From: Straminergon stramineum
Lineage: Eukaryota; Streptophyta; Bryopsida; Hypnales; Calliergonaceae
Direction: 5' to 3'
Assembly (NCBI GenBank): GCA_963920665.1
Contig: OY987264.1
Coordinates: forward strand, 32,964,906 to 33,028,905
DNA: 64,000 bases
Positions 29,185-56,700 of this stretch are shown piece by piece. A program made the translations under genes and the position numbers. The notes beneath the pieces were generated by a model. The model was given only the letters and a program-made list of their open reading frames with translations, searched no databases and had not been told where the DNA came from. The number at the start of each line of letters is the position of its first letter. Positions within the stretch are counted from its first letter, which is position 1.

Positions 29185-29427
29185 GTAAGGGAAGCAGGTT
29201 CTACTCCAGAAGTTGGTACACATCCACTATAAAAGACGATCAAAGCCTTAGCAATCCAGGGAATTATCATACTCATGCCACTTACAGTGCATATTTGGAT
29301 TCAGTAGCATATTAATAAAAGTGGGTTCATTATGTTTACTAATTTTTTCTTAAAATTGTTATTAATGAGTAGGTGGGATTGTTGTGAATAAATGAAATGG
29401 CATCTCCAACTCAAAAGTTGTAACTTT

Positions 29428-30236
29428 TTAACCCCTCATCACCCAAGGGGACAAAAAATGTCCTCACATTGTCTGGCAGTCATATTCAAACTGCTGTTAC
29501 TTTTGCATCTGATGTCTTAATTCAATAAAAACTTGTTGGAAAAGTTGAGCATACTAGTTTAATTTCACTAGTAAAATTTTCAGATCGATATAAGATTAAT
29601 GATTTTTTGAGAGCCCTTTGAAGTTCACAGGATCAATTTGAGTTCACCACATTGCATTCTGATGGCTGCAACTTCAGGGGCTCGTAACTTTTTCATAAAA
29701 TGTTTTTTTTCAATAAATATTTTTGGGTTTTGTTCCTCTTAAGGTCTAGTTTGTGTGGTTAAATTTTCATATCAATACAAGAGGTAATGAGTGACTGAGA
29801 AGCATTTTAGTAGAGGGAGGTTCAACCATAGATGAGATTTTTTGCTACTTTTTTCACTGTTTTTTGACATTTCAAAACAATTTTGCAGACACAATGAGTC
29901 AATGGAATGATATTTTTTTTCACCAAAGTGTTTGTCTTTTGGATTTGAATCACTCTGTGGTTTAGAGTTTTTTCATTTGAGTAGGTTTAGAAACCAAAAT
30001 TCACCTCCAAATGTGTTTTTAGGAAAATTTCAGCATCTTTTTTTAAGACAAAAACATTATAATCTTTCAATCTATACGGTCAAATGACCCCAAATTTGTT
30101 CCACATCATCTACAACATGCACACTACAAGATTGTACGGTTGAGATTTTCATACCTTACTGAAATTTAGACTTATAGCACTTGAAAAGCAAGGATGCTTT
30201 TACACACGTTTGGACTTTGGGCGATGAGGGGTTAAA
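29428..30236. mobile_element. TTAA-bounded non-autonomous element, family 3
   Basis: TTAA (29428-29431) plus CCCCTCATCACCCAAGG; right end CTTTGGGCGATGAGGGG plus TTAA (30233-30236). The inverted repeat is about 15 bp with one mismatch. Interior 801 bp, collinear with 17614-18580. It ends 50 bp beyond the 3' end of the transposase-Ulp1 gene. Confidence 0.85.
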
Positions 30237-30285
30237 GATTTAGTTTTGAACTGTATGTGTCGATCTACAATCATCATCTAAATCA

Positions 30286-32335
30286 CTAACCATGCATCTC
30301 ACGTTTCACTAAAGGAGTAATAAACTTAGCCTGTTTTTTCACAAGAAGTGAAGAAGGCTCTAATAGTTTCTTCTTTTTGTGCTCTGAAGTTAACTTCTTT
30401 TTTTCAACTTGGAGTTGAATTTTTGCTTCCCTTTTGGATTTCACAAGCTCTGCTCTCTTCTCTTTCTTTTTTTTCTTTCTCATTGAACTTGTCTTCTTTT
30501 TTTTTGGCAACTTTCAATCTGTTTTTGGTGAATTCTTTTGACATGAGGCATTTTCCATAAGGATTTTATCTCTTAGGGTTTTTTGGTTTCCTTGAAGACT
30601 TAGGAATAGAAGGAACTTTGAGTATACTAGATAGGGCTTCAACTCCACCTTCCAAGCCATTGCCTCTGGGTTGACATATATCAAAAAAATAAAAATTAAT
30701 CAACATGAATAATGAATATAAATCATAGAAATATTTGTGAAAATCAATACAATGTTTTTAACTTACATGTCTTCAACAATTGAGGAAAAAATTGATCCCC
30801 CTTGAAGCATCAATATTGTCTACTTTATACTCATTCGCTTGGCATTTGCCTCTCTATCTTGAAATGGAGTAGTCTGGAGTTCCCAATGCTCTTTCTGTAA
30901 CTGACCAAACAAATATGTTAACACCAAAAGTTAATTCAAATTCACATACAATCATTTCAAAAAAATATAAAAAAACTCTTCACAAACATATTGGAGATTC
31001 ACTCTTTCAAGAGATCAAGTTGGTATATATACAATTCAAATTAAATTGAAACTTTTCAAATTAAGATGTACACTTACTATATATCCACTACTTTGGCCCA
31101 AAGAAAACCCTTTAGCAATGGTGTCCAAGAAAATATCCAAACTTTTGATCAAATAAATGCCACAATCTGTACTATTATTCTCAGGTTGTTGAGGGACCTA
31201 CATACATACAAAGCAGAAAGACCTTTATATCATATTTGAAAAATGACTAATCCATTGCAATATGTCAAAATAATCAAATGCATCTTCAAGCACATACAAT
31301 TGAATAGTAACTTACATCAATTACTTGAATCTTAAGGTCAAGAAGGACCTTCTTGGGAATTTTCAAACTTGCCATGTTGTTTTGCCTTTCCCATTCCAAG
31401 TTCAAAAAAGTGCAATCAACAAGTATATTAAATTGGTATTCAATGACAAACTTGCAATGGAAATATAAAATTGATCAAATTGACCAATTTAAAAATACTT
31501 ACAATTTGATATGCTTTTGTAGATCCAAATGGGTTGTTGACTTCATTGATTTCAAATGGAGTATAGAAGGTTTCACTATCAAGCTTCCCACATTACAAAT
31601 AACAAACATGCTCCAATGTCCATTGTCAATTCATAAAAGAAAACATAATTAATAACATTGTAGTAAATTCAAATTCCAAAAACAAGTTTTCTAAAGGGTA
31701 CTATGATAGTACAAAAAAACTTGGATTAGGTTACCTGAGTAGGATAGGTAGGAAAATATAATCATACTTGAAGATATTTGTATCTTTGAGCCAACATGCA
31801 ATTTCTTCAAATCTGTTTGTGGCATCCTGTTCGTAGATGATCACAAGCTTTCTGAAGAAAAAACTATTGAAGAAATGGAGTCGTTTTATGAAATGTTGCT
31901 TTTTTTCTTGGTACTTGAGGAAAAAGTCCACTATTGTGTCTGTTAGGCATTGACCCCTAGTAAGTGATTGAAAATCAGTGGCCCTAATTGTTACTGGATC
32001 AAGGTTGTTAGATGGCCAAACAAATAAATCTTGAACTTCTATTTGTGCCTCATTTGACATGTTCATGGAATCTTCTTCACATAAGATCTCATTGATACCA
32101 TCTTTGTATAGGACCTCCTTGATATTCTCTTCTTGAAGCAATTCTTCGAGAATTTGATTAATCACATCATCAACATTTTCATATAACACCTTTTCATCAA
32201 TATTGTCATCTTCATTTGAAATAGTTTGTTGCACCTCTTCATCTCTCACATGTGAAGATAGAGATAGACTGTTCAAGTGAGGTATACTTGGCCCATAGTG
32301 CTTATCCATTGCCGTTGGATCCACAAGAAAGATGC
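30286..32335 (-). pseudogene. Ulp1/C48 SUMO-protease domain, 3' exons of the same gene
   Basis: Exon 32335-31735 starts with the transposase C-terminus, then an acidic linker, then the Ulp1 N-terminal core (LTDTIVDFFLKY, LHFFNSFFFRKL, YDYIFLPIL). Exon about 31631-31503 has the catalytic His (NGHWSMFVICN) and ILHLKSM, where Lys sits at the usual Asp. Exon about 31420-31316 carries NLEWERQN. Exon 31197-31078 has VPQQPENNSTDCGIYLI with the Gln and catalytic Cys (31162-31164). Exon 30894-30767 has FQDREANAKRM, then an in-frame TAG. Exon 30665 onward ends in a Lys-rich basic tail (about 30510-30286). Splice sites are mostly canonical; the acceptors near 31632 and 31420 look damaged. C48 peptidases cleave SUMO; here the activity would travel with a transposase. 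Fusion is shown by exon 32335-31735 encoding both parts. Confidence 0.85.
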
Positions 32336-32450
32336 CTATTATCCATCAAACCCCATCTCAACCATTAATAACATCCATATACATTTTTGAAAAACATGAA
32401 TAAACATTGAAAGAAATAGCACTTATTCAAAAAATCTTTCTAATACATAC

Positions 32451-33672
32451 CTAATGCTTTAAAACCTACTATTATAGTAGATGATTTAAGAACTTGGTTC
32501 AAAGCACTTGCTGCCATTTGAGCTAGGGTTGGTTTCAACATAACACCATTACCCCAATTTGGATTTTGTGATGACATAGTTGCTTTATCCTCTTGAAGAT
32601 ATTGTTTAAAAGGCTTGAAGGAAGAGACATCCAAAGGCTACATATGATGTGATGAATGTAAAGGAATTGTAATGACGTCCAATCCCATCTATAGGCATGT
32701 ATCAAGTCCTATAGCACTAACATGGCTACAATGGCCATCTAGCACAAGGAGGTGCTTGTGATCTTTACTCACACCTCCAGGAAAATTTCGCTTAAAGTGA
32801 TTAAGCCAATCACAAAATATCTCATTTGTCACCCATCCATTCTCTTGAACATTCATTGTAGCACCTAGTCCACAAAATTTCACATAATCTTGAAGAAGAT
32901 ACATTCCTTTGAAAATGAAATAATGGGGTATGAAAGTGCCAATAGCACTAATACATACCAAAATAGTTAACCATTCTCTTCTGTCAGATGTAGGAACATT
33001 TACATTCCTTGATCCCTTTTTTGCCACAACCTTCAGTGTATTGTTTCTGCCCACCACTTGAATCCCCAATTCGTCCATGTTTCATAAATATGAAGCTATG
33101 TATCCTTGAGAAGTAATCACAAAGGTCAAATTGTTATAAAATTGTCCACAAACATTTTTGCTTAAGCCCATACACCTCTTCAACTCCAAACCTTCTCCAA
33201 TTCTTAACACCACCTCTCTATGTCTTGATTTTAAGCACTTCCACCATCTTTGCCCAGGACGATCGTTTTTGAACGGATGTTGCCTTGGATAGTGTCTCAC
33301 AATGTCTCGAACCATATTTTTTAAGATGTGCAAGGTCACAGAGAATTCCCTTTCTTGCATAGTGAAGCAACATGTTTTCAACTCACTTTCTTCAACCTTA
33401 GTCAGGTAGGGGTCAAATCCATGTCTCTTCTTCTTGGTCTTTCCATACATCTAGTCTAAAATAGATGATGTGGGGATTGAGAAAGTTTTAGATGCCTTTC
33501 TAATTGATAATTTCCTTGATTTTATGGTATCAATGGCATTTTGCATCATCTCTTCTGCCCATTGTCCTCTGCTAGGTCCACTTGCATTGGTCTTTTTTCC
33601 TACACTAGGTCTTGCATATTCAACTTTAGGCTTAGGAGCTTCCACTCATTGAGATCTTCGAGGGCCTCTCAT
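32451..33672 (-). pseudogene. Pogo/Tigger-type transposase, main exon (5' part of transposase-Ulp1 fusion)
   Basis: One frame runs from ATG at 33672 to a donor ATTAG|GTATGT at 32451/32450, broken only by stops at 33646-33648 (TGA), 33451-33453 (TAG), 33082-33084 (TGA), 32689-32691 (TAG) and 32638-32640 (TAG). Domains in order: HTH_psq-like (about 33560-33455, ending FSIPTSSILD); CENPB-type HTH (about 33400-33150, with HPFKNDRPGQRWWKCLKSRH); DDE_1/DDD catalytic domain with MDELG (33078), LVLDGHCSH (about 32730) and PLDVSSFKPFK (about 32635). These carry the three aspartates expected of pogo transposases. The GT-AG intron (32336-32450, phase 1) leads to the next exon, where ALG|IFLVDPTAMDKHYGPS continues the transposase C-terminus. 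Family assignment is firm; this copy cannot encode a full protein. Confidence 0.9.
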
Positions 33673-33924
33673 AGTAGAGAAGATTAAATTCAAACACAAA
33701 CAACAAAACTACACTCATCAAATTTTCCTTCCAGAACATGGTTGATTCCCTCTACATAGAAAAAATAAAATAAAATTAGTGAGCCTCAAAATTATGTCTC
33801 TATAATTATAAGAGTTATATTATAGTATAAACCTTGTTACATAATCAATGATAAGGAACTCTAAAGACTGCATACCCGCACTATAGAGTTCATACCCATT
33901 CTAGTGAGGTAATCATAATGGTTC

Positions 33925-34650
33925 CCACCTTTCATCATGATACCAAAAATATTGTCAATCAATATACACACATGAGGTTGGGAGCTTTCGGGAGTTTTGT
34001 TCTAAAAAGCTCATACATTTCTTTTTCCATAGATGAAAACTCTCTTGAATGGGTTGACCGCGATCAAAACAAGACTAGCTCTAATATGCAAATGCTGCAA
34101 AATTACCAAACAAATTACATTTTATAAACATGATTGTTGTACTATACAAACAAAAACAATACTTAGGAAGACATGATTCCCTACATAGACCTCTTATTCA
34201 ATACGAGTGTAGGAATTCTATGTTTTAAAATTGTGTAAAAAATAGAAACAACACATCAAGTGCTCGCATGAAGCTTGTACTTACATATATCAGATCTCTT
34301 AAATGTCAGTATGAAAGGTCATAAAGAACTTACAGAAGGCTCGTTGAGATAACTTAGTTTTGTGAGGTCATCCACTCCTTCGAGTTTATTAGGGTTTGCG
34401 GGTAGCAACTTTGACGTATGCACTGATATCTCCTGTAATAGAGAAAACAATCAATTAGGACTATAGAACTTGCCATAAGAAATTCTCAGTCTAGTCATTA
34501 GATAAACTAGAAGTTGATCTCCAGGAGCATATACGTCAGAACTCATACTTGTCGACTAGAGGTCTACACAACAGCCTCCATGTCTTCGATGGATAAAATA
34601 ACTCTAGAAATCTAGATGTTTTCTAAAGTCAAGCACCACACTCGCAAACC
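33925..34650 (-). pseudogene. Class VIII-like myosin head, N-terminal exons
   Basis: Exon 34650-34549 reads GLRVWC... through RVILSIEDMEAVV (SH3-like N-terminal domain) with two stops. Exon 34432-34334 reads HTSKLLPANPNKLEGVDDL then TKLSYLNEPS, a signature of plant myosin VIII. A remnant near 34297-34285 matches the ...DMIYT exon. Exon 34094-34018 reads ASLVLIAVNPFKRVFIYGK. About 33988-33925 reads PHVCILIDNIFGIMMKGG. The order and phases fit the myosin motor start up to just before the P-loop; GESGAGKT is not found. Acceptors and GT donors are present. The fragment ends about 250 bp upstream of the transposase ATG on the same strand. Either the fusion element inserted in a myosin gene, or it captured these exons. 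Confidence 0.8.
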
Positions 34651-36339
34651 CTACATGGTGAAAATATGATCACATGCGTAAACATAGTATTAAATGATGA
34701 ATAGCCGCTAGTTTAGGAAGAACCACAAGTGAATAGCTGCAATACTAATAGTCATGACAACAGAACAATTGCAGGAAAAATGCAGAAAAATATATGTTGG
34801 ACCATACCTTTTCAATGTGGACGTTATAGAGATCGCAAACATTGACGCTCAAATGCTATTCACTGGACTTTTAGAACGCTTTCGTAATCGTTCTCAATCC
34901 ATTAGAGTAGCGAGCTCAAGAGATTCACCCTTTTCAAAGTATAATTGCTAGTATAACTTATTCGTCTAGGAAATAAGCATCCACCAAAATGGTGCACGAA
35001 TTCAAAGCTTCAAACAAAAAACATGCTCATGAACCACTAACGTCTGAAAGTAGAAACCAATTCAGAAATTCTACGCCAGCCATGAATTTTGTTTTCAAGA
35101 TTCACTATGTATGAAACAAATACAAGAAGAAATCTAGATTCAATTAGGTTACAAGCACAATTCGTGAAGAGCATAGCACGTTTGAGAATGCACAAGAAAT
35201 GCTGAGCAATTTGTGTATGTCTGTGTTGGTGGTCTTATCATCCACTGATAGAGACAGAGACTCCATCATTGATGCGAGTTGAAAATGACAATTTAGGTCA
35301 TTTGCGTAGTCATTGAGTGTGAGAGAGATTGGAAGGTTGAGATTTCATGTGAGAGGATCTGATGGCTGAGATTAAAAGTGACTGGTAAGTGGCACTGTGG
35401 AGTGTGGTGCCATGCATAGTAAATGGAGTTGCATGTAAGTGGCATGCGTATGATAATGCTTGAGGGCTACCTAAGCTTCATTTTTCCTAAGAATACAAAT
35501 TCTTTTGAATCTGCAACTTTTTCAGTTCAAAACATAACCCTTTAAAAAAAGAGTTGACCCAATAAGTTCAAGAAAAATCTTAAAAAACACCAAAATTTCA
35601 GAAATTTTGAATTTTCACTTAGAATTTTATTGATAAGTTTTGGTTGGTGCATTAGTAGATACAACCATATAGATATTGCCTAAGAATCATGGTGTGTACA
35701 ACTATAATTTGCTTTCACATCATTACTAAATTATTCTCCAAAGTTGAGTTTTTTGATATATCTTCACAAATTTAGAGATTTGGACTACCCCTAGTCCTTC
35801 AAAGGTTGATTTTACATATTTCATGACCTCTTTACCAAAATTTGGGGTTTCTGACTCTAAATATGATTTCCAAGTTTCTAAATTTCTTCATCCCCACAAT
35901 AAATAATCAATCCTTTGATTTTCCACTTGGAATCCCCCAAGGTGTAAAGTTCGGAGTGGAATTTTTTTGTCCCCCTATCCCTCTAAGAAACACTTGGAGG
36001 GGTATTACTTGTAAGGAGATCCATTTACGGTCAACATGAATACTTGAGCATTGAGTGCAATCTAAAGAATGATTGTCATGTCTTGGCACTCATTCTTTCC
36101 ATACCTCAGAGCATTTGCAAGGCTGATACTCTAAATAGGGGGGCCAAGTGCAAGTTTGGCATGCGGTTTTGAAAAGTATTTGGTGGCCATGCCGGCCAAG
36201 AAGGAGCACCAAGTTTTCATTGCTTAAAAAAGTAATCTACAAAAAAAAACATGCAATTCTTTGAGAACTACCTCACCTTGCTTCAAAAGCATTTTCAACT
36301 TCATTTGAGTTTCTTGGTTTGAAGAGAAACTCTTTATAT
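34651..36339. other. Upstream flank of the myosin fragment and spacer
   Basis: On the minus strand about 34930-34790 ends in a donor-like AAAAG|GTATGG, and the preceding codons could read DLYNVHIEK, fitting an earlier myosin exon, but upstream stops make this uncertain. About 35200-35450 is less AT-rich and could be a promoter or leader. 35460-36339 shows nothing supportable. Confidence 0.35.
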
Positions 36340-43079: not shown

Positions 43080-44851
43080 ATGTGGTGGCGGCGGAGTGGT
43101 GCGGCAGCTGCTGAAGGAGGCAGGAGCAGCTCCCAGTCGGATCCGCCATTTGGAATCATAAAGGTGGTAGATTCTTCACATCAATTAGTCAGTCATTTCT
43201 CACTTCAATTCTTCGCTTCACTTACTGATTTACTGCGAGGCGATGCTGCTGTACGCACTCTCCAACGGAAGGGCTTACCAAACTTCGATTTGGGCAACTT
43301 GCAAGGACGAGGAGCACGCCTAAGTGCTCTGTACGCGGTTCACCCTGCAGTGTAATTTACCGAGTGGTGTGCCGCTGCATCCTGCGGGCGGTCACTCAAC
43401 GTTGTACCCTGGGGCGTTCCCAGTTTTTGGATGTTGCTCCATTTTGTTTGATTGACTGATGTTCACGACATTTGCACATTTCAAGCTTGGTGCCTTGAAA
43501 CTTAACTCTATGTCCGTCCTACTTCTTAGAGCTTTGCGCAGGTGAGTGTCGCAATCTTGGCGCTCCGAAGTGCTCTAATATAATGAAATGGACTTTTAAA
43601 CCGCGTATCTGCTGTTTCGTTATGTATTGGACACAATTAGCAACTAATATAACTTCTGCCTTGAATTGGGCTTGTCCAGGTGAATGATGCGGTGTTCAAA
43701 CTTTGTGAGCCTACTATTCCACTCGAAGTGGAGATTGTGTTTTTACACGGCTTACAACTCTACGGTTTCGATGAGGCATATTGGAAAACTTGGATTGCTA
43801 AGAAGAAAGATGCAGATGGCAAGGAGTTTTGTTGGCCGATAGCGTGGTTGAGCAAAGATTTACCTGGAGCCCGGATTTGGTCCCTTTCGTACGACTCCTC
43901 TGCTTTTAAGACAAGCACGACAAGAAACTGGGATGGATTCTGACTTGGAGAGAGCTTGGTGCAAAACATGGTTGACCTTGCCGACATAGGTCAAGCAAAC
44001 CGCCCCATTGTGTTTGTTTGCCACAGCCTTGGAGGCATTGTGGTGAAGGAGATAGTAATCCAAGCACATGAGCAATTTCGAAATAACCAGAAGTATGTGA
44101 ACTTTCTCCGAAACATAAGAGGATTCCACTTTTATGCTACACCGCATGATGGGTCCAAACTTGCTGATTTGGCTGCGCACTTGCCTGAGAAGGCAAACAT
44201 GGTTGATCCTCTAAGGGTCATCAACGTCACGCTTAGCCGTCGCAATCAATTATTTGATCGCATTGGACAGGAATTCGGTGGCAAATGGAAATTTGCAGTT
44301 GTTGCTGAGACACACGAGACGAAAGCTGTGAGTGCGATTCCAGGGTCACGTTCATGTTTCTTGTCAAAAACATTAATGATTTGTGATCGATTTTCTTACA
44401 CCCAAGAAGTTTTGATCTGTGACTTTCCTTTGTAGTTGAGGAAAGCTATATTGCACAAGTGATTCTCAATACCTAGTACTTGAAGAGCATCTCCATTGAC
44501 ATTAGACACCCTTATGACCCTACGTATCAAACGGCACCGAGTTTCATAATTATCTAATTTCATTCAGCTCCAGTGTAATTGTTTTTTTAGAGCTGTGTTA
44601 ACGATCTTCGATGGGTTGTGGTATTGCAGTATGGGTTTAGTGTGAAGGTGGTTGAGGAGGCATCAGCACGTTATCGGAACGGAAGGTTTCTTTCTGTGGT
44701 AGCAGACCACTTTGGAGTATGCCAGCCAGAGTCTCAATTCAGCAGCAGCTATCAGTCATTAATCAAATTCATTACTAATATGATGGGCGAGCAGCGTCTA
44801 ACTGAGAGCACTGTGGCCGAAAGTCATGCTCAAGCTGTAGAACTGACATAG
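43080..44851 (+). pseudogene. SERAC1-like alpha/beta-hydrolase, one nonsense codon
   Basis: Exon 2 (43680-44327) follows TTGTCCAG and ends at GCT|GTGAGT; exon 3 (44630-44851) follows GGTATTGCAG and ends in TAG. A possible first exon is 43080-43163 (MWWRRSGAAAAEGG..., donor AAG|GTGGTA), which joins in phase. Motifs: VEIVFLHGLQL (oxyanion region), W-x-x-WI, SLSYDSSA, VFVCHSLGGIVVKE (nucleophile Ser), FLRNIRGFHFYATPHDGS, and VADHFGVCQPES with the catalytic-type Asp-His. This is the plant SERAC1-like family, a lipase-fold group expanded in seedless plants and sometimes linked to NB-ARC proteins; function unknown. A TGA at 43941-43943 lies between NWDGF and LGESLVQN in an otherwise continuous frame. 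Expression would give only the N-terminal third unless the stop is a sequencing error. Confidence 0.88.
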
Positions 44852-53785: not shown

Positions 53786-56700
53786 CCAGTTAGCTTGTAA
53801 CTAAATGCCGATACTTCCCAGACATTGGTGCTCTTTGACCTTAAGTTTTTTTGTTTTCTTTTTGACACAAATGAAACAGAATTTCATTGCAAGAGAAGAA
53901 GTTACAAACCAACCAACCACAAGTGGCCTAGCCGGGGGCACAAATACAACAACAAGACAGACCAACTAAGGGCAAGTGCACCACAACACATCACGAGAAG
54001 GGGAAGATGGACCCCAAATGGTTGACAGAAGGGGGGATGGAGCTCCGATGGCCGCCAACAGACCTTCATGGGGATTCGAGGATGAAGCCAACACACGGGC
54101 CAATAGGCGACCACTGTAGTTGTCCTGCCTCCAGACGGGAAAAAATTCCAAATCTGCATCTTCACTTGATGAATAGATCCATAAGCTTATGTTGGACCTC
54201 TTGGGACCACTTGCGCTTGGTACTCACGATATTTGCCCATTCTACTCTCCCATAGTCAAGGAGATCGTTCCAAATATTTTGCATTACCTGCTCAACGCTC
54301 TACCCAAGCCCGTTAAATACCATGTCGTTTCGTTGTCTCCAAAGCATCTACAACACCGTGGTGCGAGCTTCCAGCTAGATTCTTTTCAACTAGTTGAATT
54401 TCCATTGGATGTGGACAAAGAAAATGCCTTGCCTCCAAGTAAGGGGCCTCTAAGGGCCTTTGGCTTCAATTCCCGCCACCCAAGTGTTCAAGATGTGAAT
54501 AGCCCAATGCCACGCTTGTTGGACTGAAAGACATTCCCAAAAATGGTGAAGTACTATCTCTTCCAATCTTCTGGGGCAGATTGGGCAACGAATGTCAACT
54601 GTGCCATCAATGTGCCCTTTTGCAATGGTTGACTACTATTGCCCCATGCCAAATTAGCCACAACAACCTTGCTTCCTTCTTGGAGCACTTGGGGGTCTAG
54701 ACCATTTTCCATAAGAGTCGGAAGTCTCCAAGGAGGACTCCACTCCATTTTTTAACGACTGGGTTTGGTACTTGGTGGTGCTGTTTAAGTAGACGTCGTC
54801 CTAAACTTGCAGTGTAATTCATGAATGGCAAATTCCCTCTAGAAGCCACCCATGCTAGCTTCCCTAGGTTCTAGTCTAGAAGATCAATTCTCCCATAAAA
54901 GAAATGAACTATGGTTTTCTTTGGGCCACGTAGTAATGGGGTCACTCATACGCTGAGGAAGCACCCAAATGTGATTTGCAAGCGACCTCTGTCCATCTCC
55001 GAGGTGTTAGCCTGTAATAGACATTCCTTCTCAAGGACATTGAAGTCGGGGGTCTCGATGTCGTCAGGCCAGGGGCTAGGGACCAACCATCCGATGGGGA
55101 TTGAGCCATTAATGGGGACTTGGAAGACTGTGACTAGAATCCTAGCTTCCTTACTAGTGAACCAGCCTACCCATTCCCCTTCCTTTGCATGGAGGTATGC
55201 AACGGAAAGCAACCGACCCCACTGAGCCTATAGAGTAGAAGTTATAGCTAGCCATGCGCCTTCCTTGTCACTTCTCAATTTGAACTTCTCTTTGGCTTCC
55301 ATGAATGAAAAGAGCTGGCCCTCTTTCTGGACATCTTTGATTTGCTTGAGACCTCTCTTGTGTAGCTGGGCCGCGCGAGTTTTGGAGAAACCAGGGCCAA
55401 TTGGAGAAGCGTCTTGGGGCCACGAGAATGGTTCCCCACTAGCTTCTTCTAGGGAAAAAGGGTGAATCCTCTTGATTTCTGGTTGCAATCTATGCCACGA
55501 TGTCCCAACCCTCGTCTAGGCTATCAAACCTTTGTGTGATTGAAAGTGGGAAGCGAAAAGAACTCTAGGCTCAGGGACCAATGTCCTCCAGCGTAGGGCT
55601 GGAAATTACTGAGCCTATGACGGAGCAACAAGTGGAAGTTGGAGACACTTAGTTCGCAGGCTTTTAGAATCCATTTGACCATCAAGGTGACCAATGCGTC
55701 CTTGAGGTGAACCAAGTTAATCCCCCCTTCATTGCATGATTGGCAACATTGTATCCACGAGACTTTAACTCTAGCTCTATGCTGCAACCTCGACCACATA
55801 TAATTCTGGGTTGACAAAGTAACTTGCTTGATGCTTGCCTAGGTGCTGCCCCACATTGAGGCGAAAAAATATGTGGACCCCAGTAGCACACTGTTTACTA
55901 TAATGCCTTGCCCCTTGTAATTGATCCTTGTCATTGACCACAATTGAAGTTTCCTTGTGATTCATTCTTTAAGGAAGGCATCCATTGAGGGGGCAACAAG
56001 ATTCATATCGAAGGGCATATCGAGGAGTTTGCCAAGATTTTTGCCTTCCACCCATGTGATGCATAGATCGTTGGTCCATGCTAGTCGAATTGGATTACCT
56101 ACTATGCTCCAGTGACCGCAAGATTTTTCCCAATTGAGGATTAATCCCAAGGTTGAACAAAATTGTTCCAAGAGGGACACCATAGCCTTGATTGGTTCTT
56201 GTTCACCGAGTAAGGAAAGGGATGTGTCATCCACAAATTGAGCAATGACTTGTTGCCTTGTACCTCCTAGGAGCTGAATGCCTTTTACCACCCCACCGGA
56301 AATCCTTGCTTTCACCATCGAATTAAGGACTTCTACTACTATGAGGAATAACGATGGCACTAGTGGGCAGCCTTGACGAGCACCACGTTTGATGGGGAAG
56401 AGAGAGGATTGAGCTCCGTTGACCTTGACTGATGCTTGTGCCCCTTAAGAAAGTAGATTTGTCATGTTGATGAGGTAGTCAGGGATGCCAAATGTTGCCA
56501 TGGCTTGTGTGAGGAAGTCCCAATTCACTAATTGTGTCGAATGCTTTGGTGAAGTCCAAATTGAGGAAGATGAGTGGTTGATTAGTGTGTTGGGCCCAAG
56601 TAATTGTTTTGTGTGTCAATATGATGTTGTCAAGGATGAAACGAAGTGGTAGGAAGGCTAACTAATCTGCATCGATGATTTCCATCAAGACAGGTTGAAG

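Follow-up and report, generated by a model that had tools for sequence, protein, structure and literature searches.

The locus raises the question whether a pogo-type transposase and the Ulp1 (C48) SUMO-protease domain behind it belong to one gene of one mobile element, and what the resulting protein could do. The window (the whole stretch of 64,000 nucleotides that was analysed) holds, on the minus strand at 29267-35453, a decayed DNA transposon of 6.2 kb that is bounded by 20-bp terminal inverted repeats (TIRs) and by TA duplications. Judging from the sequence and its relatives, we consider it probable that this is an autonomous-type pogo transposon in decay, and that its transposase gene had taken up a SUMO-protease domain of the plant ULP2 type (SENP6/7-like).

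The borders of the element (Table 1) were compared with those of sister copies at three other loci in the genome (L037, L038 and L039, which together with the window copy form lineage 1). The homology of the window element to L037 and L039 begins and stops at the TIR, and the flanks are unrelated. TIRs and TA are present at both ends in three of the four lineage-1 copies (window, L037 and L039) and were seen only at the 3' end in L038. A 24-base inverted repeat (96% complementary, with 6147 bases separating the arms) flanks the transposase gene in the window. The length of L037 and L039 is ~5.3-5.4 kb, and the nested insertion of the window copy (ends CCCCTCATC.../...GATGAGGGG), which we take to be a piggyBac-like element, is missing from both at the corresponding site and is evidently a later arrival in the pogo element. 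A stretch related to this insertion sits reversed inside L038. Outside the transposon, the window contains a reverse transcriptase fragment (55965-56444, minus strand; RVT_1, 43.8 bits) and an ORF with a DUF676 serine-esterase match (43944-44432, plus strand; 24.2 bits); Rfam gave 0 matches at the gathering threshold.

Table 1. Features of the pogo element in the window, ordered along the minus strand.
Feature	Position	Strand	Basis or state
5' target-site duplication, TA	35454..35455	.	Boundary comparison with sister copies
5' terminal inverted repeat, 20 bp	35434..35453	-	Same repeat ends L037 and L039, also the 3' end of L038
Exon 1: HTH_psq, CENPB/Tc5-type HTH (no match in the window, below the cut-off on L037) and DDD catalytic domain of pogo-type transposase	32451..33672	-	5 in-frame stops
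Intron 1, GT-AG, cuts the transposase C-end (GFKALG^IF)	32336..32450	-	Frame joins in phase
Exon 2: C-end of the transposase (DPTAMDKHYGPS), then an acidic linker and Ulp1/C48, first half, from VWP	31735..32335	-	Open in the window
Exon 3: catalytic His (GHWS) and Asp position, Lys in the window (LHLKSMK)	31503..31622	-	Alignment with sister copies
Exon 4: Ulp1 domain, continuing	31316..31409	-	Alignment with sister copies
Exon 5: part of the Ulp1 domain with its Gln and the catalytic Cys (VPQQPENNSTDCG)	31078..31197	-	Pfam, alignment with sister copies
Possible exon 6, approximate borders, frame not settled	30773..30900	-	Alignment with sister copies
Possible last exon, Lys-rich C-terminal tail	30289..30665	-	Stop and frameshift in the window, open in L037
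Nested insertion of ~800 bp, TTAA duplication, inverted ends (CCCCTCATC...)	29432..30231	.	Foreign to the original transposon
3' terminal inverted repeat, 20 bp	29267..29286	-	Inverted repeat and boundary comparison
3' target-site duplication, TA	29265..29266	.	Boundary comparison

The exon coordinates and the motifs of the DDD transposase domain in exon 1 (MDELG, LDGHCSH and PLDVSSF) that were given in the initial annotation proved right upon reading of the sequence and an ORF check. The domains that it placed in exon 1 were recovered in part: on the window piece HTH_psq (27.4 bits, cut-off 20.4; above the cut-off on L037 too) and DDE_1 (43.6 bits, cut-off 22; 75.2 on spliced L037) scored above the Pfam cut-offs, and the Pfam scan of that piece gave no match to the CENPB-type HTH (HTH_Tnp_Tc5, cut-off 22.2), for which the scores were 21.0 on spliced L037, 22.2 on P0001, 20.1 on P0002 and 24.7 on P0003, the latter three being related proteins. 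Membership of the pogo superfamily was judged by a DDE_1-type DDD catalytic domain with a spacing of DD29-56D; the spacing is DD34D in L037, P0001, P0002 and P0003, and the short TIRs and the TA duplication also agree with pogo.

Exon 2 belongs to an open frame of 204 codons that contains the transposase C-end GIFLVDPTAMDKHYGPS followed by LTDTIVDFFLKY ... DYIFLPILL of the Ulp1/C48 domain. Peptidase_C48 matched this exon at 25.1 bits (cut-off 20.7), and the exon holds, as annotated, both the transposase C-end and a Ulp1 core; the score of the Cys exon of the window is sub-threshold (13.9 bits) and that of spliced L037 is 64.1 bits. The phase of the GT-AG intron between exons 1 and 2 was likewise found as annotated, and the alignment of the sister copies confirmed that the later exons carry HWS and the Cys box. 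The order of exons 1-5 is identical in all four lineage-1 copies (window, L037, L039 and L038). The acceptor of exon 2 is AG in the window and L037 and not AG in L038 and L039; that of exon 3 is AA in the window and AG in all three sisters; and that of exon 4 is AC in the window, AA in L037 and AG in the other two of the three sisters (L038 and L039). For the Lys-rich tail we considered descent from the tail that pogo had originally, ahead of which Ulp1 would have been inserted, using a profile of four non-fused tails and 2000 shuffles; this descent is not claimed, because only one of the five fused tails (that of L038) outscored all shuffles. The anatomy predicts one gene and one protein, composed of HTHs, DDD nuclease, acidic linker, C48 domain and Lys-rich tail, the mRNA of which would be spliced as a single transcript.

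The window copy itself is dead: exon 1 has 5 in-frame stops, two splice acceptors have been lost (AA and AC at exons 3 and 4) and the tail is broken by a stop and a frameshift. This copy cannot edit SUMO marks. These decay marks, and the Lys at the Asp position, were not mentioned in the initial annotation. In L037 the lengths of the five exons are all preserved but there are 5 stops, L039 shows deletions as well as frameshifts, and the fused loci that were read in letters, including two of a second lineage (L040 and L071), are all broken (window, L037, L038, L039, L040 and L071). Substitutions among window, L037 and L039 are spread roughly evenly across codon positions, as in neutral decay. 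Between the Ulp1 parts of the window and L038, second-position changes (22/192) and third-position changes (39/192) are suggestive only; the exon-1 alignment of L038, disturbed by its insertions, was omitted from the codon-position test.

By best match, the C48 domain of lineage 1 is assigned to the ULP2/SENP6-7 class: SENP7 ranks first among 17 PDB matches (query L037) and ULP2B is the best named protein match, with 30% identity over 100 residues to ULP2B of Magnolia. L071 keeps an NWFPP..AS segment that resembles plant ULP2B in a by-eye comparison with P0022, and the row nearest to lineage 2 on the Ulp1 tree is P0048, named protease 1C/D by its source. The His-Asp-Cys triad is incomplete in lineage 1: His and Cys are kept (Cys in 4/4 copies; His, Gln and Cys in the window), and the catalytic Asp position holds Lys in the window and L038 and Asn in L037 and L039. 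For this reason lineage 1 is not claimed to be an active C48 peptidase; its peptidase activity is doubtful and may have changed or disappeared. The Asp of SENP7 (ILDSLK) aligns to Asn in L037, and P0050, from a different contig, reads LHLNSMKS; because L037, L039 and P0050 have it, the Asn is probably old in lineage 1. Lineage 2 retains His, Asp, Gln and Cys, in L040 (LHWS, IHLDSM and FDC) as well as in L071 (FHWS, YFDSF and YDC).

Because of the anatomy, a single protein would bind the element ends and bear a SUMO-directed domain. The HTHs would carry the C48 domain to the ends of the element itself, and there it would remove SUMO (in the Asn lineage perhaps bind it) from the transposase or from silencing or repair proteins, candidate SUMO-bearing targets being the transposase, host silencing proteins and repair factors; the outcome would be that the element evades silencing, or that the transposase remains active. 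We advance this mechanism tentatively, as a possible one that should not be taken for the expected one. The wider picture, of a long-lived plant pogo lineage in which the fusion protein acts on its own DNA as an anti-silencing or transposase-stabilising factor, with a sublineage that is Cys-His-Asn or SUMO-binding, we regard as doubtful. A step less probable still, and in our estimate unlikely, is that the fused domain has given up its protease function and serves as a tether for SUMO or SUMO chains, by which the transposase would reach sumoylated chromatin or repair foci. The Asn or Lys in all four genome copies and the Asn in P0050, with Cys retained in all four, would fit such a tether, but His, Gln and Cys are still present in the window, papain-like enzymes work with a Cys-His-Asn triad, and both lineage-2 loci that were read retain the complete set. 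Since the C48 domain is predicted to lie within the transposase protein, its effect should be open to testing by a simple deletion in a transposition assay.

The two halves could also represent a transposase gene and a separate downstream Ulp1 gene, with no joint protein, as is found in some Mutator-like elements (MULEs): in the accessible text of PMC13317346, the Ulp1 gene of KIU-type MULEs is one of three element genes. Three observations make this quite improbable here: exon 2 of the window is a single open frame with the transposase C-end and the Ulp1 core; intron 1 splits the transposase domain, and P0001 and P0002 (70% and 65%), which are stop-free exon-1 transposases, turn non-homologous at its donor; and at least the last transposase motif is in frame with the Ulp1 core in six of the nine public proteins that were retrieved with exon 2. 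In two of these six (P0031 and P0034) the open frame spans GIFPVD..AMD to the Ulp1 core, and in the other four (P0029, P0032, P0033 and P0037) it starts only at the last transposase motif (MDKHYGPS or MESFYGPS). A profile of exon 2 retrieved 97 proteins, including ordinary host SUMO proteases; a motif scan of P0029-P0126 gave seven with both parts, and by eye P0039 and P0046 have both too. Among nine exon-2 sequences (P0035, P0036 and P0037 being left out) the mean pairwise identity is 70.5% in the Ulp1 part and 45.4% in the linker (36 pairs each). Spliced L037 as a query retrieved 28 proteins, none of which carries both domains, as judged by reading for nine and by Pfam annotation for the rest. 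A viral or prokaryotic source of exon 2 was considered and rejected: no relative was present in the viral contigs (11 pattern stretches) or the prokaryotic contigs (36 pattern stretches).

Trees were made for both halves, with rows that are relatives without family names. In the transposase tree, the rows of both fused lineages group with P0001-P0003 in a single clade (92/83; recovered in 93% of 200 bootstrap trees) once G_L008, a long-branch fragment, has been dropped, and the same clade is found with G_L008 included (90/85). In the Ulp1 tree, lineage 1 forms one clade (100/99) and lineage 2 is not clean, lying near P0048 and P0025. A single Ulp1 capture for both lineages was rejected as a claim, as this tree has long branches and does not resolve one event.

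The fusion recurs in the genome (326 Mb), where a search with PF03184 gave 145 matches that merged into 142 DDE_1 loci. The Ulp1 matches merged into 44 loci genome-wide, a list that was built from three queries and is biased to element-type loci because two of these were element-type sequences. In 8/142 DDE_1 loci a Ulp1 match on the same strand follows downstream within 3 kb, and random placement of the 44 Ulp1 loci (2000 rounds) yielded a mean of 0.023 pairs and a maximum of 2. That the relic of an old transposase and a Ulp1 relic unrelated to it became neighbours by chance and were co-duplicated, to which the pseudogene state of the fused loci read in letters would lend itself, is so improbable as to be negligible in view of this excess, the TIR and TA boundaries with differing flanks, the better conservation of the Ulp1 half among open relatives and the existence of a diverged second lineage. 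Four of the eight pairs constitute lineage 1. The other four (L040, L071, C7:3.087 Mb and C3:9.358 Mb) are provisionally called lineage 2, since only L040 matches P0047 well (81%) and the other three match it at only 35-48%. L040 and L071, which were read in letters (C7:3.087 Mb and C3:9.358 Mb are known by search match only), have the same domain order, with identities of 36-46% in the transposase pieces and 26-35% in the Ulp1 pieces; a terminal inverted pair was sought in both and none was recognised. With TIRs and TA, fused copies of the same order at other loci and, in other contigs, relatives of exon 2 with open frames, the annotated fusion of a pogo transposase and a Ulp1 domain stands, and copies with both domains, the presence of which it had proposed to check, were found in L037, L038, L039 and the second lineage. 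The remaining 134 of the 142 transposase loci are without a detected Ulp1, the short exons limiting sensitivity.

The TIR pattern (at most 3 mismatches) gave 53 matches genome-wide versus 11 for a reversed control, among which 10 inverted pairs were recognised by eye, the pairing being uncontrolled: four long (5.1-6.2 kb; window, L037, L039 and C3:45382498-45387611) and six short (448-867 bp; C2:4634561-4635427, C6:2924506-2924978, C1:20529434-20530009, C2:19540609-19541056, C6:15229258-15229723 and C6:15268553-15269018). The short pairs are probable non-autonomous derivatives, as if the transposase mobilised these too. The copy at C3:45382498-45387611, counted as a fifth, TIR-bounded copy of lineage 1, contains transposase fragments, one of which matches P0002 at 68%, and searches with exon 2, PF02902 and P0047 gave no Ulp1 match in it. 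Among the non-fused pogo loci, L076 (C9:11682000-11685999) has an open frame of 835 codons without stops in the match and several others have open frames of 518-834 codons; because of these long frames, pogo may have been active recently in the source genome. Clusters of Ulp1 loci, none paired with a DDE_1 locus, are present in this genome (G000) at C4:7.46-9.33 Mb and C5:16.61-16.75 Mb, and could represent tandemly arranged host genes of one family or a different element.

The pogo-Ulp1 fusion combines known parts in a new way. As the initial annotation supposed, no pogo element with Ulp1 was encountered in the open-access papers that were searched; with subscription papers and Repbase entries lying outside that search, the combination is likely, not proven, to be undescribed. 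The pogo superfamily (Tigger, Lemi, Fot and pogoR), according to the available text of PMC7386202, shares an HTH_psq-type part, DD34D, short TIRs and the TA duplication with the window family; it differs in its length range (1.2-5.2 kb, against ~5.3-5.4 kb for L037 and L039) and in that no protease is mentioned, the words protease and peptidase being absent from the accessible text of this survey and of PMC7325037. The land-plant pogo elements in the available part of PMC7386202 are only Lemi, from 23 eudicots. Host genes such as plant ULP2B and human SENP7 come without a transposase, and the catalytic Asp is intact in SENP7 and P0022. Ulp1 domains in plant Mutator-like and CACTA elements, to which the annotation had referred, are indeed described in the accessible portions of PMC13317346 and PMC2528002. 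According to these, KIU/VANC Vandal and other Ulp1-MULEs are likewise plant transposons with a captured Ulp1 domain but are of the Mutator type, whereas here the element is of the pogo type, with the Ulp1 domain inside the transposase gene; Pfam (E up to 0.01) found only DDE_1, Peptidase_C48, HTH_psq and HTH_Tnp_Tc5 in L037, and no Mutator-type transposase. The CACTA-ULP elements of grapevine and rice also combine transposase (Tnp2) and Ulp1 in a single protein, with a CACTA transposase (available text of PMC2528002). Ginger1, as far as the text of PMC2836005 was available, has Ulp1 on the C-terminal side of the transposase too, but is an animal element with a Gypsy-integrase-like DDE, and there is no integrase model among the four matches of L037; in the same text, Ulp1 is proposed to act in repair after transposition. 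CryptonF and CryptonS of oomycetes share the element-borne C48 peptidase and differ in having a tyrosine recombinase (accessible part of PMC3212892). The nearest published parallel, on the text at hand, to the mechanism proposed for the pogo-C48 protein is formed by the KIU-carrying Vandals, which escape silencing and cause hypomethylation of related elements, the role of Ulp1 being described as undefined (PMC13317346). Transposons from several transposase classes that are unrelated to each other (Mutator, CACTA, Ginger1 and Crypton) have acquired Ulp1-type domains, and a further capture, within the gene of a TA-targeting pogo transposase, suggests that the removal or recognition of SUMO has been repeatedly useful to transposons.
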